DNA from: Ptychodera flava
Taxonomy: Eukaryota > Hemichordata > Enteropneusta > Ptychoderidae
Length of the DNA stretch: 64,000 bases
Direction of reading: 5' to 3'
Assembly: GCF_041260155.1 (NCBI RefSeq)
Contig: NC_091930.1
Location: 23,172,237 to 23,236,236, forward strand
The position numbers were made by a program, and so were the translations under genes. Position 1 is the stretch's first letter. Every line of letters begins with the position of its first letter. The notes under the pieces are model-generated. The model made no database searches. It saw nothing but the letters and a program-made list of their open reading frames with translations, and was not told the origin of the DNA. Below, piece by piece: positions 14,128 through 63,771 of this stretch.

Positions 14128-14155
14128 CACAGGAAAAAATTTGCAAGTTACAATG
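14128..14155 (+). repeat. Left terminal inverted repeat of the giant transposon
   Basis: Starts CACAGG, then a run of A, then TTTGCAAGTTACAAT. It pairs with 41,180-41,208 and is preceded by AAC. Confidence 0.8.
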
Positions 14156-14169
14156 TTTGTGAAACAATG

Positions 14170-14440
14170 TGACATCTTGGTAGACCATGGGAAATCATGT
14201 TACACCTTGTTTATACCCATTGTTTCCCATGATGTTGATATCATGTGTACATCCAATAGCAAATGAGAAACTTGGGAAACCATGGGAAATGTTGTGTGTT
14301 ACTAGTTGTCCCAATGTTGCCCATCATATATATTGGGTCTATTTCCCAATGAATGGGTAAATGTCGTGTGGCATTACAAAAGTAAAGTAACACATGATTT
14401 TCACAACATTTCACATGATTCATGATATTGTGGCCAAGTG
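14170..14440. repeat. Left subterminal motif cluster
   Basis: Repeated short motifs in both orientations: CCATGGGAAAT, TTTCCCATGAT, CTTGGGAAACC, CCCAATGTTGCCC, TTTCACAACATTTCAC. The same vocabulary (TTGGGAA, CCCAACATT, TTTCACAACAT) recurs only at the right end. Such clusters bind the transposition protein in plant CACTA elements; the same role here is inferred. Confidence 0.65.
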
Positions 14441-14479
14441 TCATATACTAATTGGGTATTCAGTATTCTCTGAGAAGAT

Positions 14480-14990
14480 AATTGCCATAAGATTGGATGA
14501 CTACTTCAACAGAATTTCTGGTATCTACCAAAATTTAGATCGTGAAATTATTCCCAAGTTGAACAGTTACAACCGATCATTGATCAGCATTCAAAAAAAA
14601 CCATGAAAAGCCAGTGAAAAGTTAATTAAAATTGAATTCAATTTTCAACGAGAAAATATCTGACAAGAATAGACTATGTTAGGCCAAGTACAAGAAATTT
14701 CATTACACTTGAAATTATTGAACAAAAATTGTGGCTCATGTGAACAAAAGTACTGGTAAGGAAAAAATAGACGAAATTTACAGCTGATCTGATTGAGTTG
14801 GAAAATGCCTTCTTTAAACTAAGGGGAAAATTTCCTGTAGAATATCATAACAGATTCACAAAGTCATGTTGTTCTCTGTACAAAAGATTCAGACACAACA
14901 AGAAATTTAGTACAAGGACTAGAATGCTCACTCATCAATTGTTCATACAAACGAATAATTTCTACCAACAGAGTGTTTCGTAATTTCCTG
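14480..14990 (+). other. Possible decayed coding sequence near the left end
   Basis: Two plus-strand stretches read like protein: RLDDYFNRISGIYQNLDREI (to about 14,606) and, in another frame, LIELENAFFKLRGKFPVEYH (about 14,785-14,983). No initiator or splice sites tie them together and no family is recognised. They may be relics of another element gene, or chance. Confidence 0.25.
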
Positions 14991-14999
14991 ATATGTCAC

Positions 15000-16430: not shown

Positions 16431-16438
16431 GTTTAACA

Positions 16439-19400
16439 TTAATCTTCCAATTGATAAAACCTATTTCTGTTTTGTCTCATGTGCACTATTTTTATGATAC
16501 TGCATAATTGAATGAGGAAAGTATGGTTGCTAAGCTGGAAACTGTTGCTACTTCGAAGCTTTCGAACATACTGTACTTTAATTCTCTCCCCAGTGGCCAC
16601 AACTTTGCCATACCAACTAGTGTTCCGACTGCCCTTAATTTCAACAAAATCTCCTTCAACAGGGAAGCATGGTACCTGATGCTCTGCAGTTTTCCAAAAT
16701 GCCTCAGAATCTATTGGAAGATAGTAAGTTGGGTTTGTAGGATTAACTGGATCAGGATACAACATAATTTTTCTTTTATTTGACTAGCTGCTTGGACACA
16801 GTCTCTGATATAGTTTCTCTTTTCCAGTTGAGGCACCTTTACCCAATCATGCAGAATTTGCCTGCTGTTTCTCAACTGTGGTACATAATAACTGCCATTG
16901 ATAAACAAATGGTATTTGTTACTGATTGGGCCATACATAAATATACTTTCCAATTCCATGTACCATTCATTGTTCTCTCTGCTGTCTATAATGCATATTT
17001 CCCCTACACGAAATAAGGTTGGCGAACATTCCCTCCACAATAAAACTGACCTACCAGTGATACAGTATGCAGGAAGATCAACATCGTATGTGTTGATTTG
17101 CAATCGTCTCTTTATATCTATCCCCTCTCTCTCTGTAATTTCTCTGTATTTTTTTGCACCAATCAAGATTCCCCGACTAAACAATCTTTGCAGTATATTA
17201 TCATGACGATGATTCTCCATGACATATGACAACAGCTCTTTACCTTCTTCAATTGATGTACAATGCAAAAATTTTGGTCCTGGTTCTAGCAATACTTCAG
17301 TCTTCCCTGACAACATATCATCTTTATCATTTTTCTCTTGTTCATCTTTTTTTGCTAAAATGCCGGTTATGAATGCTGAAAGCTTTACACGGTCACTGTA
17401 TGTTTTTTCTGGATTTTTCATGTTTGTCACTTGTTTTCTATGATATTTCACCTCTCTCTCATAACCATAGCACCAATAATTGTCCGGTGATGAATGTCGC
17501 TTGAAGTCAGATATTAAATGTGTTGAAATTTCTAAATTTTCTGTGCATTGATCTAGTCCATGGTACTCTTCAAACTTGACAGCATGCCTCCACATAAGTT
17601 CATTTAGTCTTTCAATATCACTAGTACTATTATCCCATCCATTAGTCCTCATATCATAATTGTAAACCATACTTCTAACAGCAGCTAATGTGTAAAATGA
17701 GTCATAGGCTTTAGATGGAATAACTGAACTGAACACAAAAGGTGAAACAAGTGCAAGCAAGCAGTAATCCTCTGCTTTCCATCCTCCAAGTTTATCTGTC
17801 ATACTGTTACCCTTTAAAGTTGGCTTTCTTCCTGCTTTGATTTCGGGAGTCCATTTGACTAAAGCCAGCCTTTTTTGAACTTATTTCTATTAACCAAGCC
17901 GCCAACGCGAGGGTTTCTTTGTTCCAACTGTACTTAGGAATTTTCACCTAAAGGCAACCAAATATTGCCTTGGAATTCCCGCTTCACTAAATTCAAAGCA
18001 AAACAATGCATGAAATCAATAACTAAGTCAAACACTGGATCAAAACCACACAAGAAATATAACCGAAACCAAGGACTTAGCCCAGTAACACCAAACTCTT
18101 TGGAAAGATTACGTCTTTCTGTAACAGTACCTGCATCATCGACATCCTGCCCATGTTGAAAATTACGAATGGCAGTTCTCGGTTCTTCTGGAAATCTAAA
18201 CCTTTGACTATAGTTTCCATAGTAATAATGATTGTTTTCTTCAACTTATGAGCCCTTAAGATAGCATCTCCGACAACCTTGTTTACCCCCTGCACTGGTC
18301 AATCCAATGTCTGCGTGGCCTTTCATATAACCCGTTACCAACAATGGTACATTGTACTGTCCTAATAGTGTATGTACCTGCCATGCCATTATCTGGTACA
18401 TCTAATAGAAAATATATTCCTATGCCATTGATGTACAAATCTTCAAGTTCTGTCATCAATTGGTCAAGAAAACCATGATATTTGTGAAGGCAATTACTTG
18501 GAAGTTCATGCACAGGCACAAAGAAGAATAAACAGAATGTTTCATGATGTGAGCGCTCTTTTTTGGACATGCATGCTGAGGATATTGTTATAGATGCTAA
18601 GGAATGTGAAGTTGAGTCCTTGTGAGGCAACCAGCCATCAAAATGCACTACCAGGGCCTGGTTTCTGGGATTTCCTTCCATATAATGAGGGGCATAATTA
18701 AACCTTGAGAAACAGGTTGGGCATACTATTTCTGAGACATCATCATCCTCAAAATTAGCATTTCTCTGTCTTGCTATTTGGTCTACTGATATGACTGCAC
18801 AACAAACTTGACACCTACAAGGCAGTAAAGTTTTAATTTCAGGATCCCAAAAGTATCTGAGGTCATGAAACCTACTCCCATGCCATAGTTCACATTTGCG
18901 TTGATTATTACCTTCTCTAGGGAGCCACTCATCTTTAGCCTGCCAATGCGCCATATGCTTTCTACATTCCGTTTTGTTTACAAACCAGTTCTGTAAATCT
19001 ATACCACAGACATAGTAATCAAGACAATCATCCCTAGGTCTATTACACATAGAGCAATTGTTCTCATCTTCCTTCAGACACATAGAATGGTTATTTCAAC
19101 ACATACTTTATATAGCTTTGGAGGCTTGTATCCCAAGTATTTCTGAAATTTTTCAATATCCCTCCATGTAGGGGGATCATGGTTTCCTTCTGTAAATGGC
19201 CACATAACTTTTACATGATCAATGAATTCCTCTCTTGAAAAACCATACTTTAATTTCAACCTAAGTTCTCGTAGGATAAACTCATCTACTTTCTCATTTT
19301 GGAAAAATGGTTCCTTCCCATGCAGCATAACAATATCGTCATCATTATGTGCTTCCTCTTGATTATTATCAAATCTACCTTGTCTACCACCTGTTGCATT

Positions 19401-19590
19401 ATTTTCAAGCTCACTGTCCACATCACTATTTTCACATTCATAAGTATAATTTTCACAAAGTTCACCACAGGACTCTGCTTGATCGTCATTATTGTCGGTG
19501 TCACTGGCTGTATCAGGACGAATACTTCCTTCTGCGTGTATTTCTTCATCAAGTTCAACTGTATGTGCACCTGTGAAAATGAACACATGA
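16439..19590 (-). CDS. Tnp2/CACTA-like transposase (CMC superfamily), interrupted
   Basis: Reading on the minus strand from an acceptor (TTTTCACAG) near 19,572: an acidic Asp/Glu-rich N-terminus, Cys clusters (CSMCNRPRDDC; CRCQVCC..CPTC), the Tnp2-type core VVHFDGWLPHKD (about 18,640), a GCRRC motif, a conserved block GVTGLSPWFRL..FDPVFDLVIDFMH (about 18,000-18,090), then GGWKAEDYCLL (about 17,780) and the late W-C-Y-G-Y-E-R motif (about 17,460). The C-terminal SH3-like stretch includes GDFVEIKG (about 16,650). An intron of 68 bases (17,947-17,880, GT-AG) joins WLPL to VQKRLALVKW. Breaks: a shift near 18,305, a TAA near 18,247, and one base short in an A run near 16,765. A further junction at about 19,080-19,115 is unresolved. 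The family call rests on motif order and is strong; activity of this copy is doubtful. Confidence 0.8.
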
Positions 19591-19802
19591 CATAAACATG
19601 TATGTTTCAATCTGTAATGGTAAAAGCACTTTCAAAACATATATTAATGAAAAAAGGGACACAAAAAATTCCAGAAATACATGTATACTCAAGTTGAACA
19701 AGAAACCTAGAGGCTGATAGAGCTCAGCTTTTAAATGTTGCTAAAACATAATTATGAACAGATTAGCATTCTGCATACCAAATTTACCATAAATTTATAT
19801 TA

Positions 19803-19885
19803 CTTGGAAGATTCAAACCCACACTCACAGCAACACTGCCTAGCTAATGAACAGTGCTCAAAACCACTAAGCTGTGTGCCCAAAC
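19803..19885 (-). mobile_element. tRNA-derived SINE head
   Basis: On the minus strand an A-box-like TAGTGGTTTTGAGCAC (19,869-19,854) is followed about 35 bases later by a B-box-like GGGTTTGAATCTTCC (19,820-19,806). This is the internal RNA polymerase III promoter spacing of tRNA-like SINEs. The cloverleaf is degenerate, so it is not a functional tRNA. The tail towards 19,700 is undefined. Confidence 0.5.
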
Positions 19886-20229: not shown

Positions 20230-20700
20230 GGTCAGCATTAAAATGCAAATTTGCATATTTCTGCACAATTTGAACAAATCTGAAATAGATCATCTCTAAG
20301 GACCTATGTACCAAATATCAAAGCTATCTGACTGGTAGTTTTGACAAAGATTTGTAAAGATTTTTTACCAAAAATGAAAAAAATTGCCTTAAAGATACAA
20401 ATATGCAAATTTCACCAAAATTTGAACAAATCTAATTGAAATCACCCTAAGTAAACTGCATATCAAATTTCAAAGCAATCAGACAAGAGGTTTCAGAGAT
20501 TTTTTTACCAAAAACAGCAAAAAATGCCCTAAAAACACAATATGCAAATTTCACCCTGATTTGAACAAACTTAAGTGAGGTCACCCCAGGTGAACTGCAT
20601 ATACAATTTCAAAGCAATTGGACTTGCGGTTTCAGAGGAGAAGGCAATTGTTGATGGACAATGGACCGCCGACGGAAAAATCAACCGATTTGATAAGCTC
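20230..20700 (+). repeat. Degenerate monomer array (about 130-bp unit), plus orientation
   Basis: About three tandem diverged monomers with the recurring phrase 'atgcaaatttcacc..atttgaacaa' then 'tttcaaagcaat..gac' then 'tttcagag..ttttttaccaaaaa'. The same monomer recurs at 22.7, 23.9-24.15, 24.94-25.4 and, inverted, 36.76-37.45 kb. Confidence 0.75.
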
Positions 20701-20797
20701 TGCGTCGATGACAGCAGAACTGAAAATAGAGTTGTTTGCTACAACGCCATGCTGCATGCGTGCTTGATCAAGAGCATGATGCGATGACCATGCAGTT

Positions 20798-21021
20798 GGC
20801 ATTTAATGTGTTGCAACATTTCTGTCAATCACCGTGTCATCAGTTTTAGAAACAATCGTTTGTCTGAAAATTAGCAACGTATTTCATAGGCACAGCTGAC
20901 ATGATAATGTGCCTTTGAACAACAGTGCCAATGCCAATTTTTCAGACTTTGCCCAGAGAATCGAAATCTTTCCATACAAAATGAGTGATTGACAGAAATG
21001 TTGCAACAAATTTAATGTCCA
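20798..21021. mobile_element. Small foldback element
   Basis: Inverted arms of about 35 bases: TTGCAACATTTCTGTCAATC at the left and GATTGACAGAAATGTTGCAA at the right. It sits next to the monomer array. No coding capacity. Confidence 0.6.
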
Positions 21022-23860
21022 GCGGGCACTCATCTCGTCTGATTGTAGCCTAAGCTCAGTCGCGGGGAGTGCTTTGGGAAACATTTTACTGTTACCTTTT
21101 GCATATAAAAAAAGCATAACAATGAAAAAGTGCGAGAGTGTCAGTTTCAATGCGTAAATCAGTGTTGCAGCCAGGAGTTTTAAGCAAGGGGACGCTGTGT
21201 CCCACTACCGTTTACTTTTGGGGACATATTGCAAACTTGAGGACAAGATACGTCAGTTGTCAACAAATTTTGTTTTATTTTCTAATAAATTAGTTTCACT
21301 GAACAAAATTCAAGCTACCAGGATCGCGTCGCTGTGCCTAAATTTCAGGTAATTGTAGCATTATACTTATCTGCCGCCAATAAGAGCTTAGACGGACTAC
21401 AGTCAAGCAAATGATGATATATAGTGCAGCGTTTTAATATTACATTTAATCATAGCTAGCTCCGAAAGTAAATAAACAAAGGTCATTGTCAGTAACAGAT
21501 ATTATTTCCAGACTACATGAGAGCACCCAAAGTGACCAGCAGTATGCAAGAATGTGGGACAACGGGTTCTGTTTTGGGACATTGTCGCAAGGGCGGCAAC
21601 ACTGCGTAAATACGCATTTGTTGCGTAAACGTGAACACTGATATGTATAGCAGCTAAAAATGAAATTATATCTGGAGGTGTCTGCATGAAACTATTTTTC
21701 ATACCTGAGTTAGTGGGTAAATGTTTTCTGTGGGATCTTTCTGTTCTTACGTCACGAAGATGTCCTTTACATAAGGGGCAGATACACGGTACACATCTCC
21801 TTTTCCATTGATTACTCTGTAAAGATTGGATACAACCTTTATTAAACAGGTGTATTATTTAAAGTGAATTTTACATCGATATTTCATTTCTGTCATGATT
21901 ACATACATTTCATTTCTACAAATTGCATTATTTGTCCATGAGTAACATCTATAGAAATTATTATGCATGATCAACAGATTTATGAACAATAAAAATACCT
22001 TATGCCACCATGAAATTCATCATTTTGTCACAAACTTTGAAAACAATACCATCAGTGATATGGTGTTCCTCACATAAGTATTGGTACACCGGAAAACTTA
22101 TTTTCGACACAAACTATGGATACTGCTGACTTCAAGGTGTTATTCCTACTATTTTTAGTAAAAACCAAATATTCCCGACAGGTATGTAGCCAACTTCAAC
22201 CTAATTTGATTCTTAAACTTTCTCAAGCATAACACACTAACAATTGCAATTCAACTTTCAAACCATAATGAAAAGGTATTCCCAAGTTATGTTCCATTTT
22301 GCACAGTATCACTTGAGATGTACCAACCTATGACTGCATATTTCACCAACCCTTATCGCAACTTTCCAAAAGGAACAACCAAACACTTTGGAAGCATTTC
22401 TCTATATTTACAAACTGTGTCAGTCTCTAACTATGAACAGCTGTGTAGTCTGATGTATAAGTACACAAACAGAACACAGATATCTACCAGTTACATGTAA
22501 AAATAATTACCAAAAATATATGATATCCGTATTTCACCATAATTTTATAAACATCATAACAAGAACACCCTTTCATAATAACACATAGACAATGCCAAAT
22601 ATCAGTTCAAATGTGAAAAAACATTTAACCATTTAGAATCTGCATACGAATGTTCAAAGCATTCTAACCAGTGGTTATTGGGTTTGAAAGTTTTACACCA
22701 ATTTTACATTTTATCAAGCTCATTTGCATGTTTTGGGTAATGATAAATTCATTTGAACAAAATCTCACCTGCAGTTCTGCCTGCAGATACACACCAAGGT
22801 GGAATTTTTAATTTTTGCTGAAGATTGACAGACATGCATGCATACATACATACATGTACACACACAGAAGTGGAAAAATACTGTTAAAAATGGTGGCTAT
22901 ATGGGTCATATTAGTTGTGACATTGGGTGGTCTTTTTTAAGCATTTATATTGAATTTATGAGTGACTAACACTTTCTAAAGCTACCTCCAATACCACGCT
23001 AATATGCCAACTATCCTGCTTGATTCCAACAAAGTCTGGATATGAATAATTACCATTGCCATTATTCACATAGGAATTTGAGTTCTGACTTGAATTCAAT
23101 TTTCATCAAAAAATGTTCAGCAAAACCCTTGTCACGTCACTGTAGTACAACTAACGAATGAATACTACAATCTGATTCCCTATATCAGAGATGTAAGAAA
23201 ATATTTACTTTCTAGGGCTTAAATGGTCTGTAATTGACAGAAAAAGAAAATTCTGAAAGGGTTTACTTTGTATGTCACATTAATTCATTAAAACATAAAA
23301 TACAAGTCATCACTGATGACACAATCACCACTTGGTTAACTCTTTGAATCGTCATTGTCTTGATTACTTGACTGGCAGTCATGTTTTATTATTTCAGCAT
23401 GGCACGTACTTGCAATTGTGTTAGTACAAGTTGTCGCTTGGAACTCCTAGACTACTTTGCCTCCACAGAATATCTCTGCGAGATCAAAGTCCTATGCACA
23501 TCTAAAGGCAATGGGCAAAGCAGATCCCTACATTTTCTGACCAAAATGAAGCAAATGACCCTAACATTAAGAAAATCAAGGTACATGTAATACCACACAA
23601 AAAAACAACCAACCTAGATACTCATGCATAGTCCACCACATTTACAATTACATGCAAACCAATTAGTAGTTCTTAATTATGACAATTTTCATTTTTTGTT
23701 TCAGCTCCTTTACATAGTGTAAGATTTTCACAGTACACCTGCATATAGACAACAGATGCTGACTGATCCCATGAGCTTCTAATGCTATACATGTACCAGA
23801 ACAAGCATCAATGACACTTGGCTTACATTTGGTTCAATGTGGCAGGCCAGAGTGGATATA
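21022..23860. other. Element interior without a recognised gene
   Basis: AT-rich sequence containing a partial monomer (about 22,690-22,830), a short (CATA/CATG) run at 22,832-22,866 and no supported exon. It separates the transposase from the kinase gene. Confidence 0.4.
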
Positions 23861-23869: not shown

Positions 23870-25420
23870 GTTTACCCCTGGGAACATCGTTACCAAGTTT
23901 CAAAGCATTCAAACAAGCAACTTCAGGGGAAATGAATTTTTGACCAAAAATGCGAGAAATTGCTGCAATAAATTTTATCAAATCTAACAGAGGCCAACCC
24001 TAGGATCATGCATACAAAGTTTCAAAGCAATGGGACGAGCGCTTTCAGAGAAGTAGATTTTTTGACCGAATTGGGAAAAATTGTCCTAAAAATACAAATA
24101 TGAAAAATTCACCAATTTTAACAAACCTGACAGAAGACAACAACAGGATCAAGAGTCTTAAGGTGAAAGTACTACGAATTACGTCAAAATTAAGTTGTGG
24201 TGTCATTTTCTTGAAACTTTGCACAATATTCTTGGAAGTTGTGCAAATGCAAAAATAAAAATAAAAATCGGGGTCACCACGCTCGTTTCCATGGAAACGG
24301 ACGTTAAAATGGCGTCGTTAGATATAAATAAAAATGATAGAATTCACTTAAACTAAAGAAAGCAATTATAAAAGCTTAGCAAATGAGTTAATTTTAATAA
24401 ATACCAAGACTTAAGATCCATATCTCGAATGTATAGTTTTCATGATGTTTGTAAAGAAATTTTAACATAAGTATCGATTACAAAATGACGATATCGTAAC
24501 TATATCACTACATAATTTTCGAACTTTCTTCCTATCGCTTTGAATGGTGTCATTTTGACCAAACTTGGCGAATAAAATCCCGACATAATACCATTTAGTT
24601 TACACTTTAATAAAAGAGTGTTACCACGCTACATTTACAATATCTCCAGGTGAATAGGTAATATGCGCCATGTAAATGGGAGAGAAATGTTAATTTTTCG
24701 CTCATATTGAATAAAAACCAGCTTCCTAGGGGGTCAAAATATGACAAGGTTATAGGTCACATGTATTTCTAAGAGACTGGGTCAAAAAATTAGGTAAAAG
24801 CGCAATTTCAACAATGACAGGTAATGTTAAATACATGCGCTACAAAGTAACCCATTTGCGACAGGCTGGAGTTAAATCTGCGCAGAAACGTTCTAAAGCG
24901 TGTGCGCGTCCGAATTCGTCGCCCTTTACCTTAAGTGTTAAAGCAATCCAACGAACATTTTGGGAGAATATAATTTTTTGACCAAAACTTGGAAAAATTG
25001 CCCCCAAAATACAAATATAACAGTTTCACAACAATTTAAACACCTTTGACAAAGGCAAACCCCAGGATCATGCATACCAAGTTTCAAGGCGATGGGATGA
25101 AGATTTTTTGACCAAAAAAGGAAAAAAACTGCCACAAAATACCACTATGGAAATTTCATCACAATTTGAGCATATCCAACTAAAGTCATCTGAAAGAACC
25201 TGCATACCAAGTTTCAACCAAATTTGGCCTGTGGTTGTAGAGTTTTGGCAATTTGCTGGATTCCCCTTATTTACCTCATTGCATATTGTTGAAACTGACA
25301 TGTTCATTTGAACAAATTCACATCTCTATCCCTGGCCATGGGTGCACCTGTACACCAAACACTTAGTTTGCAGGTGCTGCAGTTTTAGAGTTTTGGTATG
25401 GATGGACGTACATCCAAACA
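23870..25420 (+). repeat. Degenerate monomer array split by a MITE
   Basis: Monomers with 'accaagtttcaaagcaat' and 'gattttttgaccaaaa' phrases lie at 23,870-24,156 and 24,936-25,420. The intervening 24,157-24,935 is a separate insertion. The array ends in the family's head-like stretch 'ttcatttgaacaaattc...tggatggacgtac'. Confidence 0.75.
24157..24935. mobile_element. MITE of about 780 bp inside the monomer array
   Basis: Imperfect terminal inverted repeats: CTTAAGGTGAAAG...ACGAATT at the left against AATTCGTCGCCCTTTACCTTAAG (inverted) at the right. It interrupts a monomer whose two halves abut it. Its interior ('aaaatcggg.tca', 'aaaatggcg') resembles 53,090-53,470, so the two may be relatives. 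Confidence 0.65.
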
Positions 25421-25752: not shown

Positions 25753-27102
25753 CTAACACCACAGAGCTAAAGTAGCAGCTACTGCGCATGCAAAGGGTCT
25801 TTGCTTTGGGTCAGTTTGGAGACATGATTTGCTTAGATTAACAATTTCCTGGTTCCTGAGTAATTTACCTACATCTGACAATAGTCTTCCAAAAGCATAC
25901 ACATCACCAGCCTCATAAAATTGCATTTTGCCTTCCCTAACTTCAGGTGGAATGTGTGGATATTTTTCTTGGTATTTTTTTCTCTCATCTCTACTAAGTG
26001 TATAGTACATTCCCTGTCTTCTGTTGGGCCTTACCAAAGTCAATTATTGTGGGAAACCATTCATCATTTTTTTTTGCAACAAGAATATTGTCACCTTTTA
26101 TATCACAATGAATGTAATGGTGATCATGCATATGCTGGATGGCATCTGCTGTTAGTTTACAAAGCCTAATCCAAGTCAGCTCATCTATGTCTTTTTCACA
26201 TTCAACCCTTTGTGCCTTTTTCTGGCACATATTAATTGCCTTGTTCCATGTCATTGAAATATATTTACCTCCGGAATATGTTCCTCTGAATTCTGACACT
26301 AGTAACCAGTCCTTCTTATCCTTAACAACTCCAAAAATAAATGGAAACACTGGATGTTGGAGAGACTGCAAAACACTAACTTCTCTTTCAATCTCATATA
26401 TAGAATTTTCTTTGAGTTTGTATTGTTTTACAGCGACAGGAATCTTAGTATCAGAAATTCTTGTGAAAGCAACTTTCACAAAGCCAAATGACCCCTCTCC
26501 AATAACTGCTGCATTATCATACCCTTCCAACAAACTCTTGCATATAATTTTAATATTTTTTAATTTGCCTGTTAACTTTTGTTGCTTTGAAGGTTGACAT
26601 TTCATATGTTTTTTTCTCATATGTTCCTTTTGTTTAAGTTGCATTTTCAAATTTTTTATTTCCCTCATTTGTTCCATTGCTTTTTCCTCTCTTTCTTTCT
26701 CTCTCTTTGTGCTTTAACGTCAGCTTACTCCTCAATTTCTTTCTTCTTTGTTGACGCTTTTCCGAGATCGCCTTCTTTTTCTACCCTTCAAAAGATTATA
26801 CACAGCACTGCATAAGCTACATGACTTACATACACACATGCCTGCATGCACACATATATACACAAACATGTGTGCATAAAAACATACACACAAAAATATC
26901 CACATACACATATAAGTGTAAAACACACAAACACACACCAAGACAAAAATGTTGGGTGGCAAATGGTTTGAATTAGGATGATACATGCCTGTTTGAATAT
27001 CATAAATTTCTTTTATTTGGTAAGTCCCTGATATACATACCTCTGTATTGGCACCTGCTTCTTGTCTTTCCATGTTGATAAATTCTTTATTATTATTACC
27101 TG
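25753..27102 (-). CDS. Protein kinase gene carried by the element, interrupted
   Basis: One exon at about 27,102-27,043 (acceptor ACTACAG, donor GTATGT; NNKEFINMERQEAGANTE) precedes a large exon starting at 26,780. The latter begins with a Lys/Glu/Arg-rich coiled-coil-like stretch (KKKAISEKRQQRRKKL..LKMQLKQKEH), then a full kinase domain: glycine loop GEGSFGFVK, VAVK lysine, ERE in helix C, HPVFPFIFG, catalytic loop HCDIKGDN (non-RD, Cys before Asp), DFG, PPE in place of APE, DVYAFG, and DPKQRP. All catalytic residues are present. The frame slips in the purine run near 26,700 and by one base just after DFG (about 26,010). Earlier exons are not identified; the minisatellite lies in the expected upstream intron. 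The family resembles expanded marine-invertebrate kinases with a HP-lPflFGV motif. Substrate unknown. Confidence 0.75.
26815..26945. repeat. CA/CATA-rich low-complexity stretch
   Basis: Imperfect (CA)n, (CATA)n and (ACAC) runs in the kinase intron. Any frame across it is low-complexity. Confidence 0.85.
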
Positions 27103-27329
27103 TAGTTATACTGATAAAGTAAACACCATAAAGTGCCATTAAAATTCAATCTTCTAATGATACAGAAATAAAGCTGTATCCTTACAAATATAATTACTTT
27201 GGTTTTTTACAGAAATATCCTGTAATAGCTGTTCTTCTATACTGTATCACACCTTATGCTAGTGAAACACATACAGTTACAATCTAAGAAAATGGCATAT
27301 TGAATTGTAGATGGAGAGAAAAAAAAGAC

Positions 27330-29400: not shown

Positions 29401-30626
29401 AGTGTGAATTGCAGACACAGAAATAAAAAGTCTAACTCTTCCTTAAATTGTGGGTAGTGAGAAAGTGAAATAGTTAAACTTTATATTGAATTCTTCAGAT
29501 TTAATTTGCTCCCTATGTGTACAATGCAGAATATATGAAAAACAACTGTACAACCACAGACAATAGAACATCATTACGTGATCTCTGGAGAATAAAGTGC
29601 TAAAATGTTTGTTAAAAAGGGAAAGGTTCGCAATCGGCGGGGTCAATGCCTCATACATTCAGTCAAGAATGGCAATGACCTTGGCACTTAATGTTATCTT
29701 TCTATCAAGCGCGCGTGTACTTACCAAACTATTATATAAGAAGGGACAGTGACCTTGCTGGAAGTAGAGAATAGTGTCCGCAGCCTGTATGTGAGTTTTT
29801 GAAAATGGGATATATATCCGTTTTCACACAACAAAAATCAACGGCCGAATTTCACTCCTATTGTTCTGAAATAATCGGAAACACGAAATGTTAGAGGAAC
29901 TGATAACAGCACGATCTCACGCACATGATTCAGTATGCGAATGAACAAAGAAATGAGTTAACACGTAATAAGCTTACACCTAGCGCCTGTATACATTAGT
30001 GTTGGCATATAAGACGAGCTAGGCGCGGCATGCTTGACTGAAACAATCATATTGTGGACGAAATATATTTAAATCATTTCATTTACCTGCGCTTTTATTG
30101 CATCGGCAAGCTGTGAAGTACCTTCCTCTTCAGTACAGTAAAGCCGAGTCCAGCGTGCATCTCGGGAATGCCTACTTTGTAGCCAATCACATGGTTCCTG
30201 TGTTATCAGTGATTATCCAAGTATGGAAAGTTTCCACGGGTTCATAGGTCATGTAGGCTAGTCTCGCCCCTTGTTCAATTATTTTGGTGACACGTAACGT
30301 GGCCCTGTTTTGACCTTTTCACGTGATTTTTCATCATAAGGCTTTTAAAATGTTACTTACTATAAATATCTTGTCCAGAAAATCTATGTCTGACAGATCT
30401 CGTTTAATTTTACACATATCCATAAGGTTTTATCGTTGACGGAGGGTACGGTGAACAGCTGATAAAGGTCAGATATGCAGTATGTAAGAAGATGAACAAA
30501 CAGAGGCGCGACGCGCTTACTTTTGAAATTATGTTTATCATACAGCTGAGCTCTCGTTGTTTCCGGAGGTTCATTCACTTTCTGGACTTCTTCTTGGCGT
30601 ATATCCATCTCATTGGCACAACAACG
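29401..30626. promoter_or_regulatory. Divergent upstream region between the kinase and the third gene
   Basis: The kinase (minus) and the third gene (plus, ATG at 30,627) point away from this interval. It is locally richer in CpG and G+C (for example 29,990-30,290) than the surrounding introns and has CACGTAACG and TGACGTC-like sites. A shared or paired promoter is inferred. No TATA box or start site can be fixed, and first exons of the kinase may lie here unseen. Confidence 0.35.
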
Positions 30627-33600
30627 ATGTCTACATCAAGTGAAACCGACGTCAAAATACTCGTAAATGCGTATTTAGATGGCCACAGCGTTTTTGTCAG
30701 GCCATTAACGCTCAATGGCTCAACTTCTGGCGAGATGATAAGTGCAGTAAGGCAGGTGGATGAAAAGCTTGTCTGTGACTCTACCAAAATGGAGAGAGTT
30801 TTAGTATTTGACCCCGACTGGGACGATTTCGTTGACCACGATGGTTGTGTCGATAGTGGACGGAAGTACCGAGTATTCTTCGTGTCGAAAGGTAATATTC
30901 ATTAAATTTTGCCCATTTTATATCATGCTCAACAGACACATCTTTGTTTAAACTGTTTACATTAACTAAAAACGCGGTAAATGTCTAATTAGGCAAAGTG
31001 ATGCAATGGCACATGGGTAATTAAATCATAGACAGTGGAAGGCTCAACCACACTATGATTAAATTGCTCTTATCCGGTGATTACACCAAACATTGTGTTG
31101 ACAAGTATTGAATTAACCCGCATACTTACTAGTAGTTTAGTTACATGGACAAAGTATGGTACATGTTGGGGAGGGAGGGGTACTTTGAATAATTTTCCAC
31201 GGAGGTAACCTCATGATACAATGTGCTTATGTATTTTCTCCAAAACAGACCTATTTTCAGGGACAGTGCTCCTCCAAATGGGGATTTTTACATATTTTAC
31301 AGTTATGCTAGCACACTTGAAGTTTTGGGGATTAAAAGTCAGTGGAACCATGTTTAGGGATTTTTCCATGAAAAAGTGACACATCATCCACATGGCACAT
31401 ACTTGTACACCTTCCTATCAGAGCACACCCCCACCCCCACACCCCGCTACATGCATGGCTATGATGCTGAATTTTGTTTGGTTTGAAGCTGTGACCTGAT
31501 ATATTGTCAGATTTTAGCTCCAAACTTTGATATGTATTCTTGTACTGATAAGAAATCACAAACCACATTTTTCTTTATTTCAGGAAAACCTCACAATTTG
31601 TCTGCTAATATTGAAAACAGAATGACCAGAAAAGAGCTGGATAAAGAAGCCAGGACCGATTCAACAGCAAGAGAAGCCCAGTTATATTGGAACAATTTCA
31701 ACATAACTGTGGCTTCTCTTCTTCGGACAAGGTGGCATGAGGTTTGTTGAATAATGTAATTCATAAAAAGTTTTAGAGATGGGTACTTAAAAATCAAACC
31801 AAAAGAGAAAGAACAACAAGAGGTGGTGTGGGTAAGAACTTGCTTGTCCCTTCTCAAAAATCAAGGTATGATTAAACTCACAAGTGAAAAACTTTTGATA
31901 ATAGTGATTAGTACACTTTTGATGGAATAGATCTGCCCACATTTAATTTTTATACTAACATAGTGTATTGATTGTATTTCTGTTTTAGCTCCAAGGATCA
32001 CGAGGCCTAAAACGATGTGCTGGGACATCTATTGGTGAAGCAAAAGTGAATCAAAATATCATTCAAGAAATCTGTAAAGAAGCAGAATCATTGCATAAAA
32101 CATTCACCCTTGGAGACAAGGTTGTTTGTTTTGACAATATTACTGTGTTGAAATACATAAAAACACACATCAATGAATCAAAAAGGCCAGAATCAGGTAG
32201 AGTACATTCCTTATTCTTAAACATTCACCCATAATCCATTTTCTTTCTTGAAGTGTCACAAAAAGTCTAATGTTGGAGCAAAATTTTCCTACACATACCA
32301 GAACTAATCTGGTTTTCTCCACAATGATGTAAGTACAAAAGGTTTTCATTAAATGTCAAATATCCGACAGTGACAGAATTAGTTTTAATAGATATGAAGG
32401 TGGTGTCATAGGTACTAATGACTGTTTTTTAAAGTACATTACATTGAGCTGTATCTTTGGTATTTTTCTTAGCATTGTTGTTCTGTGGTCACCTACAGTA
32501 CTGGTTTACTCCCAATGCTTCAAAAATTGCCCGCGTTCTGACTTTCAATATAGCCTCATAATAATGGCAGTGGTATTTCTAACGAACAGAATCAAGTCCT
32601 TCATTAAAATTGACTTAACACTATTTGCATTTCATCACATGTCATAGAACATGAAATAAATATGCTGAAATTGAATCCAACAATGCTAAGAAAAATACCA
32701 AAGATACAGCTCCATGTAATGTACTTTAAAAAACAGTCATTAGTACCTATGACACCACCTTCATATCTATTAAAACCAATTCTGTCACTGTCAGATGTAA
32801 GCAAAAGCATCTTTTCTTTCAGAGATTAAGTCATTAATTTCCATTTCATTGTATTGAATTGAACTTTAGGGCAGAAAATACCACTCATGCATGAAACAAG
32901 TGAAAAAGTAGCCTGCACAAATAGGCATGGTAAGGAATCAGAATTCTCATTGTTAAATCATAGTCAAACTTTTTGTATATGAATGTTGTAAGCAAAACTC
33001 ACAAGATTTATCAGTGAATTGAATATAATTTCCTCAAAGGCATTGTTGTCATTATTGTAAAAACATGTCATAATTCTGACCATATTAACATGCGTTATAG
33101 AAAAGGAAATTATCAGATCATTATAACCAAATCACAAACTGAAGAGAACACATTGAGTGATGTGTCATGATTCAGCAAACTTCAGTGCATTTCCAAATTA
33201 TGTGGACATGGAACCCTATGAGTGGCATGTGAGACATTGTGTAGATTATATTCCTGTAAAAATTACATGTATATTCAAAATCTTGTGTGACTTCGTCTAT
33301 TGACCATGAATAAACCCAATTGCTTTTGCTATCATGTTCTAATAAGCAAATGCTACAGGACAGAAAGTGGTGACATCAACAAATGTGTCTCAGTGTATGC
33401 ATGATTAGTGAGATATTTTATTCTCCGTTTATATCAACAGAAAAAAAAGAAAGCTGAGAATTTCACTGTTAAAGAAAGCAAAGGTAGCCATTTTTCAGGA
33501 ATAGAATTCTGAGTTCTTGTGCTCTTATCATGTGTGTCTCAAAGCATTTTAATGTGTTAATATTTACTGACTTCAGTTGGGAAACATGATTATGAACAAT

Positions 33601-36600
33601 GTGACTCAAAGACAAAATGCCTTATATATATTTAGGTTTTACAGGGTAAGTCAATACATGTTTAATAAGTACACTAAAGTATTCTGAGGCACTATTACAT
33701 CTAAAGAATTTCAAATCATAACCCTGTTTGAATAGTTTTTTTTCGTATACTATTTTACTAAATCTGAGATGAAACACCCAAAATATAAAAAATCAACAAA
33801 CAGATTTTAGGACTACAGATCCCTGTTGTAGGCTGCAAGTTAAAGTTAGTTGTATCTGCCAGTGTTGTGCCAGTGTCTGAAAATTCTGCCTGTCCAAGCT
33901 TTTATTATATGTACAGTGCTGTGAGCATATACTCATTACAGGGTCTGAATATTTTTCAGTGTACATGCAGTTATGCATGTGTTTACTTCTATCATGAAAA
34001 CTTTATGCATTTTTCAGAAATTCTAAGAATTAGGAAATTTTATTGAAAGTCACATTTGCAGTCTATTTACAAATGGATATTATGTGTTCTAAGTTATTTA
34101 AGGTGATAATCTTTCCCCAGGTGAAACAGAGATATCAGAGAGAAGTAATTATGTACTAAAACACCTCTCAGTACATCAGTCATCAGCCAATATCAGATGA
34201 GAGTGCCGATGACAATTGTGTAAGTAATAATCACTGTAAACCTTTGATTATAATTTTATAGAAGGAAGTTAAAAGATATCAGCAGTAAATGGAACATCAT
34301 AAATTTTGCTGTTGTGTTCTGCCTGTTTCCCAAGAGGATTTTACAATTCAGTGTAGGATTTAAAGTAATGATCAATTTTCAAAATAGGCAACACCCATGT
34401 TGTGATTTGAATTTCAAGTTTCACTGCAGTTCCTTTTTAAAATCTATTCCAAATGCAGTGGATTCTTCCTAAATGTTGTGGCCAATTGTGCAACCATGCA
34501 TTATTAATTATCATGACATATGTGACAGCTTTGTTTACCGTTTGAACAAGTTCTTCCATATGTGTTTTCTGTTTAGGAACAAGAAAGTTATGAAACAAGA
34601 AGACTGAAAAACATTGAAATAAACAGAAAGGAGTTAGCAGAAAAATTTCAAGGAGAAGGAATAGACAACTATCAAGAGGAAGCTGTAAGTGGACAAGTTT
34701 CTATCTGTGTTTAACAATACTGATGACAGTGTAAATCATGCAGATAAAGACTACTGCATTTCTGTTATAATGAAGTTATTTTTCGCAATTTCAATATATT
34801 GGAAACAAAAGCAAGCAACTTACATACCTTCTTTATCTTCATCGCACAGAATAATTTTTTTATCAAGACAAGAAAGACTAAGGTAATTTTGCCACTATTG
34901 ATAATTAAGCAATAAAGGACACCCAGCGACGGTATACCACGAGATTTTGACCAGTTCACGACATATATGCACGAGCGATAGTGAGTGCATATACGAAGTG
35001 AACTGGTCAAAATCGAGTGGTATACTGTCGCTGGGTGTGATTTATTGCTATTATATCATAACAGTATATTGAAATTTAGGCATGGAACATCAAAAATTGA
35101 TTTTTGCTCAAGCTGAGAGCTCGCGCGTGTGCCAGCCGTGGTATATTGCCAATATACCACGGTTCCTTTCGCATCTCGACCAATGAGATCGCTGTATTTA
35201 TGCCATCAATACTGGTATGATATAATTTACAATATATGGTATGTGTTAGCACAGAGAAGACATTGGAATAAATTAAGACAAAAGCAATCACAATGAAATT
35301 TCCAATTAAATTTCTACATCTTGTTATAAAATCACATTTCTTGATTTTTGATTATTTGTTGAGTCAGAGACAGGCTTAGAATAGGTCATCTCTTCCTTTC
35401 TGTTTCCATTCTGATTGCACATGCAGTGAACCACTCACTACTTGAAACTTTTGAATAGGTTTTTCTTTTTGATGGAAGGTTATGAATTATAAATATCTTT
35501 TGTAAAATTGTTTCTCTTGCACTAATGTGTACATCTGACTGGTCCATTGAAAATGATAAATTTTGAGATTTTTACAGGCAATATTTAAAGTTGCTAGGTG
35601 GTATTGCCTCAAAGTTGTGTGTTTTAGCATGTTCAACACCAGGGAATATAATTCAGGTGTTTTGCTGTTTACCAAAACATTTGCGTTGTTTATTATTTAC
35701 AGAGTAATGGTAATAACTTGACCAAAAAGAGAGCTAATAAACAGGTAAGAGTATAGAACTTTTATGCTGGCTATGAAGGTTATTGGAAATTGATATTTAT
35801 CACTTGGATTACGGGAAAAATATGTTAACAGTTTAATTTCGAATGAGCTTTAATTTTGCTATTAAACGGGAAGTTACAGGACTGTGGGTGCACGGTAGGG
35901 GATTACTGATGACAAAGCCATTTGCATACACTGGATGGGAGCTTTTGAATTACCAGAGCTTTGCTTTGACTGTATGAGAATTTTGAATAATCACGATGGG
36001 AATTTTCGTGACATGCAAAGAGGGGTCAAATGGTTGCACAGGGAACACAGTTTGAAACATATGCATTCTCAGAACATTTTTTCAGTTTATTTTCGATTCA
36101 AGTTTAGTTGCCATATATTCACAGACATCATATGCAAGATTCAATAACAATGAACGCCTAAATCATGACAAACTTGTGGGATTCTGGGACTAAACACGGC
36201 ATGCCTTTTCAGTAGCGTGGCTTTTTACATTTTCATAGATTTACAATAATCCAGCTTTTATAGGGGAAGTTCCTGTCAAAGAAACATGCATTTATGTTAT
36301 TTCAATACTTAAATACACAGAAAGTCCAGAAGATGCCGGCAAGGAAGCGTCTTCAGGTAGGTGTTAGCTTCACTCATTCACGTAAGCTTATGACATGTAA
36401 ATTGTTTTTCTTCATCTGTGTAATACCATCAGATTGCTCCCTGCAAAATCTTGAGTGTGTGCTGCATGTTCTGTCTTAATATCAGTCTGAGTAGGAAATG
36501 TCAATTTGCTCAAATAATATCCTATAGTAAAATACATCCAATTTAGTAAAATAAAACACAGAAAACAGAATTAAAGTCTCACAAAGCACTTATCTGAATA

Positions 36601-39600
36601 CTACACTTTTTAGCTGACATTTGGTCTACCAATGGGAGCTAATAATATTAGTCTGCATCTGTCCTCTGTATGTATGTACAAATGTATGTATGTGTGTATG
36701 TTATGTATGTCCTTCCACTGCAAAAACTTGAAAACCACTACACATTTCACGTTGATATTTTGTGTGCTGATGCATTCTGGACTGTAGATGGGATTTTCTT
36801 CAAATGAAGTTGTCATCACCAAAATATGCAAATGGGCTTAAGAAATTTAAAAATGATCAAAAATTAGAAACCAAAGAACCACAGGTCAGATTGCTTTGTA
36901 AATCGGTTTGCAAGTTTGTGAGGTGGACCTTATATAGTTATATTCATTTGTGTCTTCTTCGTTTCTTGGTCAAAAGTCATCTTCTTTGAAGCCACGTGTC
37001 CTATTGCTTTGAAATTTGATATGGAGGTTCCTGGGGATGACCATAGTCAGGTTTTTTTTAATCATGATGAAAGTTACATGTATGTAGTTTTGGGACAATA
37101 TTCCCCATTTTTGGTCAAAAAATTATTATCTCTGAAACCACTTATCTGAATGCTTTGGAATGTGATTTGCATATTCCTAGGTTAAGTAACCTCAGTCCAA
37201 TTTGAACAAATCATGGTGGTATTGGCATATTTGTATTTTGGGGTAATTTTTTCCGTTCTTAGTCAAAAAAATATTTTCTCTGAAACTGTTGATCCGATTG
37301 CTTTCAAATACAATATGCATGTTCCTAGGGATGACCTTAGTCTGTTTTCCTCTAATTGTGGCAAAATTTTGCATATTTGTCTTTTTTGAATAATTGGTCC
37401 CATTTTTTTTGTAAAAAAATGTTTTCGAAGAAGTTTTCAGGTTGCAGGTTATCACTCTTGCTTTTTCTGGTGTATAAATGAATGTACTAATTCAAAACAA
37501 ATGTGAGCACAGTGTCCCTGACACTATTTTTTATGAAGATTCATCAAATATCATTATAGTCTCATATAGTATTCATAGTTTACATTGATATCTGCCTTTT
37601 GATATTTCACAAATATTTTTAAGAGTAAAATAATGAAGCAATAAAACACACCCAGTGACGGCATACCACAAGATTTTTACCAGTTGACGACATATATACA
37701 CAATGGTAGCGAGTGCATATATGAAGTGAACTGGTCAAAATCGAGTGTTACACTGTCGCTGGGTGTGATTTATTGCTATTATATCATAACAGTATATTGA
37801 AATTCTGGTGTGGAACATCAGGAAAGGACTTGCTCTAGCCAAAATCTCGTGCGTGTGCCAACCATGGTATATCGCGAATATACCACGGTTCTTTTTAAGT
37901 CTCGACCAATCAGATCACTGCATTTGTGCCATCAATATACTGGTATCATATAATTTTTTTTTTATCATTAAAGGGGAATGATACGCTCAATTTCATAGAT
38001 GATGTAAAGAAGTAAGGTTAAAAATGCAGTAAAAGACATTGGCTTGAATGACTTTTAATGGCACATATCTGACTATTGGCCTCAAGCATTTCTGCAAATA
38101 GTGGATGTGACATTAGCAAATCCGTGATAAAAAATTTATCACAATTTTCCCATTCATCTGTTAACACAGTCTTTTACGCACATAAATGTTACATTTGTTT
38201 GTAGTTGATCAGCACAAAAACCAAACACTTGCGTCACTGAAAAGGTATACTCCAAGAGTATACTGTGTGTTGACTGCTTAACAAGTCACATGTCTTTTCT
38301 TTTTACATTTTGCAAGGTTGTAACCCCGTCAGTGGCCACAACCATCATATTATAACAATTTCTTACACTTGTTGCAAACTCTGATAATTGAATTGCTGAT
38401 CTTATTGCATTGAAGTGATGACTGAAGTAGGTAACTCCATTAAAAATTTTCATATAGTTATGAGACACTTTAAAAAACGTGCAAGATTACTACTGCAAGT
38501 TTTTCATTTCAGTTTTTGTTATTTATTTCAGTTAGATAAAGAAATTGTGGATTTCTGTACAAAAAGTGATACTGAGGTATGTATTTTCCTTCTATATAAT
38601 TCCAACAAAGTCAGTCCAGTCAGATGCTATGTAACATTGTAGTGCATTTTTCAATACAATGGGCAAACAAAGTCTTCTCTGTAAGTGATGTGCTCTCTTT
38701 TATTGATTCAACAGGAAGATGAGGACGATGAAAAAAGGAATGACAGTGGGGTAGGTTGAAAGATTTATATTATATTTTCAAGCAAGGATACAATCATACA
38801 TGAACTATTTTATTTAATGCAGAGATGGTCAGTATGAGAGGTTCCACCCTGACGTCCTCTGTGCTTACACTGTCTAACCTCAGAAGGCATTGTTGAGTTA
38901 GGGAAAAAATGGTTAGAATTGCAGTTAATGTTCCGGTACAAGTAATTGACCCTTTTAATCTAACAATTCTTTAGTGATTAATAAGCTCAGAACCCCCTGA
39001 AATTATATATTTGCTTAAAACCTAGATATTGATGAACATTTTGGTTTCTCAGGTGTCACCATTATATACATAACTGTCACAGGACAGGTAATTTAAATAA
39101 CCTTCCAAAAACTGGTTAATGCTTTGAGATATCTTGCTCATATTTGCATGAAGGCCAACTGTCATCACAATCTTCCAAAGGTGTCTTGGAATATTTTTAA
39201 ACCCTAGATTGATTTTTATAATGTGACAACTTCCAGAGCTGTGAATCTGTCACCTTGAACACTGTGCTACAAAAACTCTGATCAAGATAAATAAAATCCA
39301 GAAACACTTTGGAATTTGTCACAACAGCTTGCATTTGTGTGAAATTGAGCCCGATATCTCAAAGCATTAACAGAAGACGTTGGGAGAACCAGTTTTGGTA
39401 AGGTTATTTAAATAACCTGTCATGAAACAGTCATGCAAGCAATGTTGACACTGTAGTAACCAAATCGTTCCCCCATATCTAGGCTTTTAGAAAAATATGT
39501 AATTTGGGGAAGTGGCGGTTTCTGAGCTTATTAACCACCAATGAATTGTTGGATAAAAAGCGTCAATTACTTGTACAGGAACCTTAAACCATGGATTTAC

Positions 39601-40309
39601 TCTATTTTATGTGCACGTATTTTATTGTTAGCCTCAAGTGTGAAAACCGGAAGTGGTGTTGACTTTTAACGCCATCATCTACATAACTATTTTCTAGTCT
39701 GGAAGATTCAGTCATGTGTGGGTCAAGGCTGTGTCACACTGCAACTTCTGACCATCACTACGACTAAAGGCAAATTGTTAACAAACCTGTCCTCCAACAA
39801 AATAATGATGAATTCATGTTCAAAGCTGTGTTCCAAATAGACATATTTCTCTAAAATGGGACAATGAAATCATCGTCTGCAAAGTTCTGTTAAGTAGCTA
39901 CAGAGTAATCCACCCTCTCAACCTTTTGATAGATTATCTTCCCTGGGTGTAATATTCTGGCATGTTTAGATACACTTTATCGTACAACGCCTTAGAGTGT
40001 GACGGAACAATCTGAACCATACGTGGAATGTACTAATAAGATTATTAATAATTCAATTTATGTTTTTCAGCTTACCAAAGAAGATGCACATGCAATAATA
40101 TGCATGTGGTTTGGCAAGAAGAGGATAGTAGACATTGATTATAAACAATTGAAACTAGAATACAATCCATGATGATTGGCGAAAGCCCATCATCGAAATG
40201 TAGACTAATTGAAAATTTGTCACAATTTCTCGTGGCAAAAAAGTTTGTCATAATTTCAGACAAGCGACCATTGTCAAGAGATGACATAAAATCATGGAAT
40301 AGCTTTTAA
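30627..40309 (+). CDS. Unrecognised gene of about twelve exons carried by the element
   Basis: Exons with GT-AG borders: 30,627-30,891; 31,584-31,741; 31,989-32,196; 32,870-32,929; 33,441-33,483; 34,121-34,219; 34,577-34,684; 35,703-35,744; 36,321-36,356; 38,532-38,576; 38,715-38,750; 40,071-40,309. Phases agree at most joins. Exon 1 (MSTSSETDVKILVNAYLDGH...KYRVFFVSK) is a compact 88-residue module that could be a beta-grasp fold (PB1/ubiquitin-like guess only). The middle is charged and Lys-rich, with 36-45-base exons, an acidic EDEDDEKRNDSG patch and a KMPARKRLQ basic patch. The end reads LTKEDAHAIICMWFGKKR... and SDKRPLSRDDIKSWNSF before TAA, with AATAAA at 40,374. Frame slips occur in exon 5 (A run), exon 6 and exon 12 (about 40,165). 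I do not recognise the family. It could be a TnpA-like accessory protein or captured cargo. Confidence 0.65.
32364..32794. mobile_element. Foldback element in intron 3 of the third gene
   Basis: Arms of about 117 bases (32,364-32,481 and 32,678-32,794) are inverted copies ('gacagtgacagaattagtt' against 'aaccaattctgtcactgtc'), with a loop of about 195 bases. No coding capacity. Confidence 0.85.
34905..35234. mobile_element. Composite palindromic MITE, copy 1
   Basis: The first half is a palindrome of about 143 bases (AGCAATAAAGGACACCCAGC ... GCTGGGTGTGATTTATTGCT). The second half is bounded by ATTATATCATAACAGTAT and its inverse ATACTGGTATGATATAAT, with an inner palindrome (CCGTGGTATATTGCCAATAT...). 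The same two halves occur together at 37,635 and 63,772, so they form one composite unit. It lies in an intron of the third gene. Confidence 0.85.
36660..36715. repeat. TGTATG-type short tandem run
   Basis: Imperfect tgta/tgtg repeats within an intron of the third gene. Confidence 0.8.
36760..37455 (-). repeat. Degenerate monomer array, inverted orientation
   Basis: The reverse complement of the monomer seen at 20.2-25.4 kb ('ggtcaaaa..tctctgaaac..attgctttgaaat'). About five diverged monomers. It lies in an intron of the third gene. Confidence 0.75.
37635..37965. mobile_element. Composite palindromic MITE, copy 2
   Basis: Same layout as 34,905-35,234 ('cacacccagtgacggcata' ... 'tatactggtatcatataat') with more substitutions in the palindromic half. 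Confidence 0.85.
38925..39587. mobile_element. Long foldback element, second copy
   Basis: A diverged relative of 8,924-9,610: it shares 'aagctcagaacccc', 'cctagatat', 'gtgtcaccattat.tacata' and the inverted right arm ending in 'aggaaccttaa'. More substitutions between arms suggest it is older. Confidence 0.8.
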
Positions 40310-40849
40310 GAAGGAGGCAGTCTTTTAGTTATTTAGTGAATCATTGTTGATGTGAGAGTTCTCTTGTTTTTTTAATAAACATTTTTTTAAATCTGTACCA
40401 GAATAATGTAGTGTGTGAATAAGGTGTATGCTTCTTGAATGATTGTGGTGAACAGTCCGGAAAAAAAACTGTTTCCAGTTACCTGACTTTCTAGGGGCTG
40501 TAATGGTTTTTATCTCCAACATGACATTATGCAATAATAAGTAAAAATATGAAATCAAATGCAGTTTAATTATGTCATACAATCCAACATGAAAGATGAC
40601 ACTTGGTCAATTTTAGAACACAAATGCAATTATTTTTACGTATTTAACTGGGTCACGAAAAACAAGTTCCATCTACGGAACCTATTTCTTCAAGGCCCGT
40701 TACAGGAAACACATATTACACACTTTTTATGTAAAATGGTATTGTCTCTGTCAATCCTGTATTTCAAAATCAGTGAATCAAAAGTCTCTCGATGAGCCGC
40801 CTTATGAAATGATAAATTAAATGTCCACAATAATATCTATTGTGCAAGT

Positions 40850-41175
40850 ACCTGGGTCGGATGTAGTTATACCCACAATGCACTGTTCACAATACTGATA
40901 TTTCCCTGATTCCCAACATTTCACAAGCATTGAGAATGTTGGATAATACCATTGTTTCCCCATGAAATACCCAAGGTTTCACAACATACACGCGCTAGTA
41001 GTACCCAAGATAAATGTTGTGAATAGCCAATCTTTGGGATTTCCCAACATTGGGGAGTGTACAATTATGTTGGGAATACCATGGGTGTCAGAAAACCAAT
41101 ATCTTGGGAATGGCCAAGGTCTGTACATTATTCCACAATATATTCCCATCATCTCACAACATATCTCATATATCC
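40850..41175. repeat. Right subterminal motif cluster
   Basis: Repeated CCCAACATT, TTTCACAACAT, TTGGGAATACC, CCATGGG and CTTGGGAATGG motifs in both orientations, mirroring the left-end cluster. Confidence 0.65.
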
Positions 41176-41179
41176 CTAT

Positions 41180-41208
41180 GATTGTAACTTGCAAATTTTT
41201 TTCCTGTG
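41180..41208 (-). repeat. Right terminal inverted repeat of the giant transposon
   Basis: Inverse of 14,128-14,155 with one extra A in the run. It is followed by AAC. Confidence 0.8.
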
Positions 41209-63770: not shown

Positions 63771-63771
63771 T

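Follow-up and report, generated by a model that had tools for sequence, protein, structure and literature searches.

In a stretch of 64,000 nucleotides from the hemichordate Ptychodera flava (contig NC_091930.1, positions 23,172,237 to 23,236,236; this whole stretch is called the window in the following), a unit of 27,081 bases probably represents a single, old and inactive giant DNA transposon of the CACTA type (EnSpm), which lies in one of the tandemly repeated zinc-finger-gene units of this locus. Besides a Tnp2-like transposase, it carries a protein kinase and a spliced third gene, which is more than elements of this type normally contain. An original prediction, made from the letters of the sequence alone, had proposed a CACTA-like transposon of this extent. 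The broken reading frames of transposase and kinase, a paralogous empty site at 63.4 kb and a change in CpG content at the ends were not part of that prediction and are described here.

Ends of the element and the paralogous empty site

The unit is bounded by near-identical inverted ends, by a duplication of the trinucleotide AAC and by clusters of the motif TGGGAA (table 1); terminal inverted repeats, a 3-bp duplication and subterminal motif clusters had correctly been pointed out in the original prediction. The extra A in the right copy is the sole difference between the two terminal repeats. With up to three mismatches allowed, the 21-mer AAAAAATTTGCAAGTTACAAT, which they share, occurs at just two places of the window, one at each end and in opposite orientation; none of 100 shuffles contained two matches. 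TGGGAA or its complement TTCCCA occurs five times in the first 350 bp and five times in the last 350 bp of the element, whereas other windows of 350 bp contain 0.14 copies on average and 2 at most. An exact search of viral_contigs, a collection of viral sequences, with 24 nt of the end sequence gave no match. This collection and genome_contigs, which is bacterial and archaeal, were also used for the genes described below; absence from either of them says little about an animal element.

Self-comparison of the window revealed diverged units in tandem array in the host DNA; they contain C2H2 zinc-finger genes and are about 17 kb long when insertions are discounted. The stretches 1-5.2 kb and 46.25-52 kb match at 81-92%, 41.7-45.0 kb and 52.6-56.7 kb at 67-79%, and the zinc-finger open reading frames (ORFs) at 10.1-11.4 kb and 58.8-60.05 kb at 79%. 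The left flank of the element (14029-14125) is an 83.5% match to 63304-63399 and this match ends at the duplication, from where the right flank extends it to 63534. After removal of the element, the joined flanks align continuously across the junction with a score of 161, as compared with 112 for the left flank alone and 67 for the right flank alone; in 10 shuffles the right flank scored 20-30. Thus 63304-63534 belongs to a neighbouring tandem unit without the 27 kb. As far as sequence comparison goes, this paralogous empty site supports insertion of the 27 kb as one unit.

From 63304 to 64000 nothing but nested repeats of the element (34.9-35.2 and 37.7-37.9 kb) gave a match; these lie within the third-gene span, but are repeats that also occur in host DNA. 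According to the original prediction, finding the kinase and the third gene at an identical position in a relative without the ends would argue against the element. Neither the kinase nor the third-gene exons were found in 63304-64000, the window holding only about 600 bp past the empty site.

A fragment resembling the reverse transcriptase of a long interspersed nuclear element (LINE; 5228-7289, named by eye) has a paralogous empty site of its own at about 51.98-51.99 kb.

CpG composition

The observed/expected ratio of the dinucleotide CpG (CpG o/e) is 0.424 inside the element (362 CpG in 27,081 bases) versus 0.975 outside (1,256 in 36,914). When windows of 500 bp were compared (54 inner and 73 outer), CpG differed with p=5e-15 in a Mann-Whitney test. 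A blind two-breakpoint segmentation of the whole window by CpG, done with a resolution of 100 bp and without supplying the element ends, placed the breakpoints at 14100 and 41200. Together with the empty site, this supports what had been claimed earlier, namely one inserted unit of 27 kb. The LINE at about 5.2-7.3 kb, which is likewise missing from its paralogous site, is CpG-poor too (o/e 0.46). CpG loss thus appears to mark transposon DNA at this locus, and the simplest explanation for such a loss would be germline methylation. The C2H2 zinc-finger genes, the LINE, the spliced genes and the mosaic pattern of CpG depletion all point to an animal host.

Inside the element, the CpG o/e is 0.33 for the transposase, 0.22 for the kinase and 0.19 for the part of the third gene from 30931 to 34800, which is mostly intron; just upstream of the kinase (26791-27300) it is 0.00. 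Because low CpG is common to all of them, the kinase and the third gene seem to have resided in the element for as long as the transposase. Intermediate values are found at 37.6-38.9 kb (0.48) and 39.6-40.4 kb (0.53).

Genes of the element

The left gene looks like a Tnp2-like transposase, mainly by its motifs. Candidates for the acidic triad are HFDGW, IDFMHC and YGYERE, and these motifs and their setting resemble those of Tnp2 proteins. The reading frame changes near 19090, at 18440-18380, near 17875 and near 16765, and in-frame stops lie near 18245 and 17935. No relatives could be confirmed for two pieces of the transposase in viral_contigs and for one piece in genome_contigs.

The kinase is identified by Pfam with Pkinase (E=1.5e-19 for 25994-26713) and, for the joined kinase reading, with PK_Tyr_Ser-Thr (7.1e-23). 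The motifs GEGSFGFV, VAVK, HCDIKGDN, IDFG, PPE and GDVYAFG are readable. Most kinases have HRD at the catalytic loop, where HCD is found here. Among PDB sequences, the unbroken kinase piece was most similar to a Cryptosporidium calcium-dependent kinase (6.9e-12), the joined reading to CDK-like 2 (2.2e-14). These best matches differ and therefore do not settle the kinase group. A coiled-coil reading upstream of the kinase is broken as well, by a stop and a frame change. Kinase relatives were confirmed neither in viral_contigs nor in genome_contigs, and 10 further ORFs overlapping the element (a subset of its ORFs) matched no Pfam family at E up to 0.1.

As both the transposase and the kinase readings are broken, this copy looks dead. 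The three genes of the original prediction can be recognised as a Tnp2-like transposase, a kinase gene and a gene with many exons, but two of them no longer have intact frames. The prediction had gone further and suggested that such elements multiplied kinase families in invertebrates. This was not substantiated: nothing in the present analysis shows it, and a copy that looks dead is no working carrier.

The predicted exons of the third gene form a chain with a score of 22.4. The codon table of the chain predictor was trained without the third gene; its splice-site tables were generic values. When the downstream DNA was shuffled, this score was reached in none of 100 cases with exon 1 kept (maximum 14.6) and in none of 100 with exons 1 and 2 kept (maximum 16.9). 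Substitution by real DNA was done with 17 pieces, 14 of which stayed below the third-gene chain (maxima of 17.1 and 16.5, one for each design). The 3 that scored higher use zinc-finger ORFs or the LINE reading, i. e. real coding sequence that is largely contained in the training set of the predictor. Two candidate exons were not retained: 32648-32796, picked at the lowest intron penalty, sits inside a nested fold-back repeat, and 38532-38576 was chosen at penalties 6-8 in one run and was missing from a later run.

Neither piece of the third gene matched a Pfam family, and no match to PDB sequences was obtained at E up to 10. A match to an NCBIfam model for a bacterial pseudouridine synthase (E=0.053) was weak and was taken as chance; for exon 1, no relatives were confirmed in viral_contigs. 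By analogy with other CACTA elements, the third gene may correspond to their usual second protein (of the ORF2 or TnpA type) and not be additional cargo. The kinase would then be the one unexpected part, since the third gene fits this usual second protein. Originally both the kinase and the spliced gene had been counted as extra load; this holds for the kinase, but perhaps not for the third gene.

Table 1. Features of the element and of the paralogous empty site (window coordinates)
Feature	Position	Strand	Remarks
Target-site duplication, left copy	14125..14127		AAC
Left terminal inverted repeat	14128..14154	+	27 nt, starts CACAGG; CACAGGAAAAAATTTGCAAGTTACAAT
Left subterminal region	14155..14477	+	5 TGGGAA/TTCCCA motifs
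Tnp2-like transposase reading	16440..19571	-	about 1,000 residues, no clear intron; four frame changes, two in-frame stops
Degenerate ~139-bp repeat, two tandem copies	20235..20643		relatives at 23.9-24.15, 24.93-25.22 and, inverted, 36.97-37.42 kb
CpG-richer stretch upstream of transposase	20401..21900		o/e 0.74; candidate transposase promoter region
CpG-rich stretch between two ~139-bp repeat copies	24001..24900		o/e 1.16; possible later nested insertion
Protein-kinase reading	25756..26713	-	no intron within kinase domain; one frame change just after DFG
Tandem repeat	27301..29346		150-bp unit, 13.6 copies; beside kinase gene
CpG-rich island at third-gene start	29430..30930		o/e 1.00; candidate shared promoter of third gene (+) and kinase (-)
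Third gene, exon 1	30627..30891	+	ATG at 30627
Third gene, exon 2	31584..31741	+	phase matches exon 1
Third gene, probable exon 3	31989..32196	+	open, splice sites present; picked only at lowest of five intron penalties
Nested fold-back element	32362..32796		arms 119 nt, 97% complementary
Third gene, predicted exon	34577..34684	+	
Nested repeat	34899..35228		common to 37630-37956 and host DNA 63769-63983
Third gene, predicted small exon	35703..35744	+	
Third gene, predicted exon	36264..36356	+	
Nested repeat, second copy	37630..37956		copy of 34899-35228
Third gene, predicted acidic exon	38715..38750	+	
Nested palindromic repeat	38924..39587		common to host DNA 8923-9610
Third gene, predicted last exon	40071..40172	+	stop included; AATAAA at 40374
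Right subterminal region	40859..41180	-	5 TGGGAA/TTCCCA motifs
Right terminal inverted repeat	41181..41208	-	28 nt; reverse complement of left plus one extra A
Target-site duplication, right copy	41209..41211		AAC
Paralogous empty site, next tandem unit of host locus	63304..63534	+	junction 63399/63400

Alternative interpretations

Several observations weigh against the interpretation as one inserted CACTA element. The terminal repeats open with CACAGG and thereby have the CAC, but not the full CACTA. Beyond these repeats there is no clear homology between the two ends, and for this reason the age of the element is not readable from them. Transposase_21 of Pfam gave a weak match to the piece 18283-19095 (E=0.046, 13.3 bits versus a cut-off of 28.6) and no match to the joined transposase read-through. 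Frame changes in transposase and kinase could partly be assembly errors. A second copy was not found within the 64-kb window, and joint movement of the three genes is thus a supposition. Instead of an insertion here, the neighbouring unit might have lost the element precisely. Furthermore, the internal CpG-rich stretches (20.4-21.9, 24.0-24.9 and 29.4-30.9 kb) fit later insertions as well as promoters, and the kilobase 57001-58000 of the flank is CpG-poor too (0.54), with no recognised transposon there.

A CACTA element of ordinary size, with a transposase and the usual second gene, could have been inserted and later enlarged by separate insertions including the kinase, which in this case never travelled with the element. 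We regard this as unlikely, albeit as an alternative to be taken seriously. Nested within the unit are three copies of repeat types from the host flank and the fold-back element, and some internal stretches have a flank-like CpG content. A tandem array of 2 kb adjoins the kinase, which is also flanked by inverted ~139-bp repeats. Yet the kinase and its upstream region resemble the transposase in their low CpG and differ in this from the nested repeat 34899-35228 (o/e 1.26), although another one, 38921-39590, is low too (0.28). In addition, the decay of the kinase resembles that of the transposase, and convincing terminal repeats bounding the kinase were not found. None of the 23 inverted pairs listed for the element looks like the terminal repeats of an inner element bearing the kinase. 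Five pairs (I2, I4, I7, I9, I11; 71-82%) consist of the ~139-bp repeats and surround the kinase together with the first part of the third gene (20.4-24.1 versus 37.0-37.2 kb). They were set aside as terminal repeats, as direct copies exist near 24 and 25 kb and no perfect ends were seen; no tool search for a duplication was made. Pair I17 (27 nt, 85%) was taken as chance, with one arm lying within the kinase. Low CpG and decay similar to those of the transposase, together with the lack of convincing terminal repeats, speak for long residence of the kinase rather than for later insertion.

There is only a slight chance that a host locus with kinase and third gene came to lie between two CACTA ends and was moved on a single occasion, by pack-type mobilisation or macro-transposition, without founding a lasting family. 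Animals do have inverted-repeat transposons with pack-type captures, with 370 cases in 100 genomes (PMC8277862), and a single copy is in view. However, the captured stretches have a median length of 224 bp (PMC8277862), and in the present case the transposase gene lies within the same unit, which has one CpG signature.

We also consider it quite improbable that the element belongs to a superfamily other than CACTA with 3-bp duplications. The CACAGG ends and the weak Pfam match, which is gone in the joined reading, would be in line with this. On the other hand, the order and wording of HFDGW, IDFMHC and YGYERE fit Tnp2 proteins. The 3-bp duplication together with subterminal repeats fits CACTA elements (PMC2613891, PMC4158355).

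A chance inverted repeat around an ordinary host gene cluster can practically be dismissed: both the kinase and the third gene might belong to the host, but the empty paralogous site, the duplication and the CpG breakpoints at the ends contradict this, and no continuous match of the region of kinase and third gene to the neighbouring tandem unit was found.

Possible mechanism

If the unit is a giant CACTA-type transposon, the Tnp2-type DDE transposase encoded by the left gene would have cut at the CACAGG ends when the element was active, and the element would have been transposed by a cut-and-paste mechanism with a stagger of 3 bp. A helper protein, most likely the product of the third gene in a TnpA/ORF2 role, would have bound the subterminal TGGGAA repeats. 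The kinase would be a resident gene of the element, and a bidirectional CpG-rich promoter at about 30 kb probably served both it and the third gene. This kinase could either be cargo acquired from a host well before the present insertion or have a regulatory function in transposition. Germline methylation, before or after this insertion, would have caused the CpG loss, and the copy could then have gathered nested repeats and decayed.

A more far-reaching interpretation, which is conceivable but doubtful, is that a giant animal CACTA lineage possesses its own kinase, under a promoter shared with the protein that binds the subterminal repeats. The kinase would then control transposition, for example by phosphorylating the transposase or host factors, and the lineage could have seeded kinase genes through the invertebrates.

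Comparison with known elements

CACTA elements typically have terminal repeats, a transposase, ORF2 and a 3-bp duplication (PMC4158355). Tgmt* from soybean, which belongs to CACTA/En-Spm (type element En-1), is 20.5 kb long and has a DNA-binding second product (PMC2613891). The element described here resembles these in its large size, its inverted ends, the 3-bp duplication and the subterminal repeats, and probably also in a transposase of the Tnp2 type and a second spliced product. In contrast to them, it has CACAGG ends, a length of 27 kb, a kinase gene, an animal host and a transposase without clear introns. In the text of PMC2613891 the word kinase occurs once.

Giant EnSpm elements have been reported from the red alga Chondrus crispus (16-20 kb, 4-5 ORFs; PMC6431247) and from the brown alga Ectocarpus, where they reach 15.2 kb, most giant families contain nested insertions and the transposase is frequently a pseudogene (PMC12477816). 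Enlargement and accessory genes are common to these and to the present element, and with Ectocarpus it also shares nested insertions and a transposase in decay. It differs in being larger and in residing in an animal; "kinase" is absent from the main text of both PMC6431247 and PMC12477816.

Among invertebrates, CACTA-related transposons are represented by SmTRC1 (PMC1636069) and a CACTA element of Daphnia (PMC2884549), and the present element resembles them in this respect. SmTRC1 has a Transposase_21 domain and a CCC end, and 7 of 14 copies show a direct repeat of 2 bp; its relatives in Tribolium and Aedes are about 5.2 and 9.2 kb long, and "kinase" does not occur in the text (PMC1636069). 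Animal Pack-TIRs likewise have non-transposon sequence between transposon ends, but are mostly hAT and Tc/mariner elements with short captures (PMC8277862), whereas here a whole kinase domain lies beside the transposase. Teratorn, a fusion of piggyBac and a herpesvirus in fish (41-182 kb; PMC6431247), is also a giant animal DNA transposon with extra genes, yet its transposase is piggyBac-like and its other genes, about 90, include those of a herpesvirus. No virus-specific Pfam families turned up in the ORFs of the present element that were scanned, a subset of all.

No kinase-carrying CACTA/EnSpm element from an animal was among the literature matches listed, which comprised titles and abstract openings, with Repbase and most subscription journals outside the coverage. 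Giant EnSpm elements with extra genes are known; the kinase in an animal CACTA element would be the new part. Giant transposons occur in taxa (fungi, green and red algae, Ectocarpus) that remain haploid for long periods, as noted in PMC12477816. A kinase-bearing CACTA element of 27 kb in an animal would extend the giant elements to diploid hosts and would provide a concrete vehicle for copying signalling genes around a genome. With the end sequences and the empty site at hand, this can be tested directly in the source genome.

Repeats and neighbouring features

At E 1e-5, the ~139-bp repeat had no match in the window outside the element, and the 150-bp tandem repeat none elsewhere in the window. 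In the CpG-rich island at 29430-30930, the start of a minus-strand ORF (near 30600, judged by eye) is oriented head to head with the plus-strand start of the third gene, and the island may be an unmethylated promoter. A palindrome of about 180 bp with CpG-rich arms was noticed by eye at 13822-14003, immediately beyond the left end of the element; it is possibly a fold-back element.

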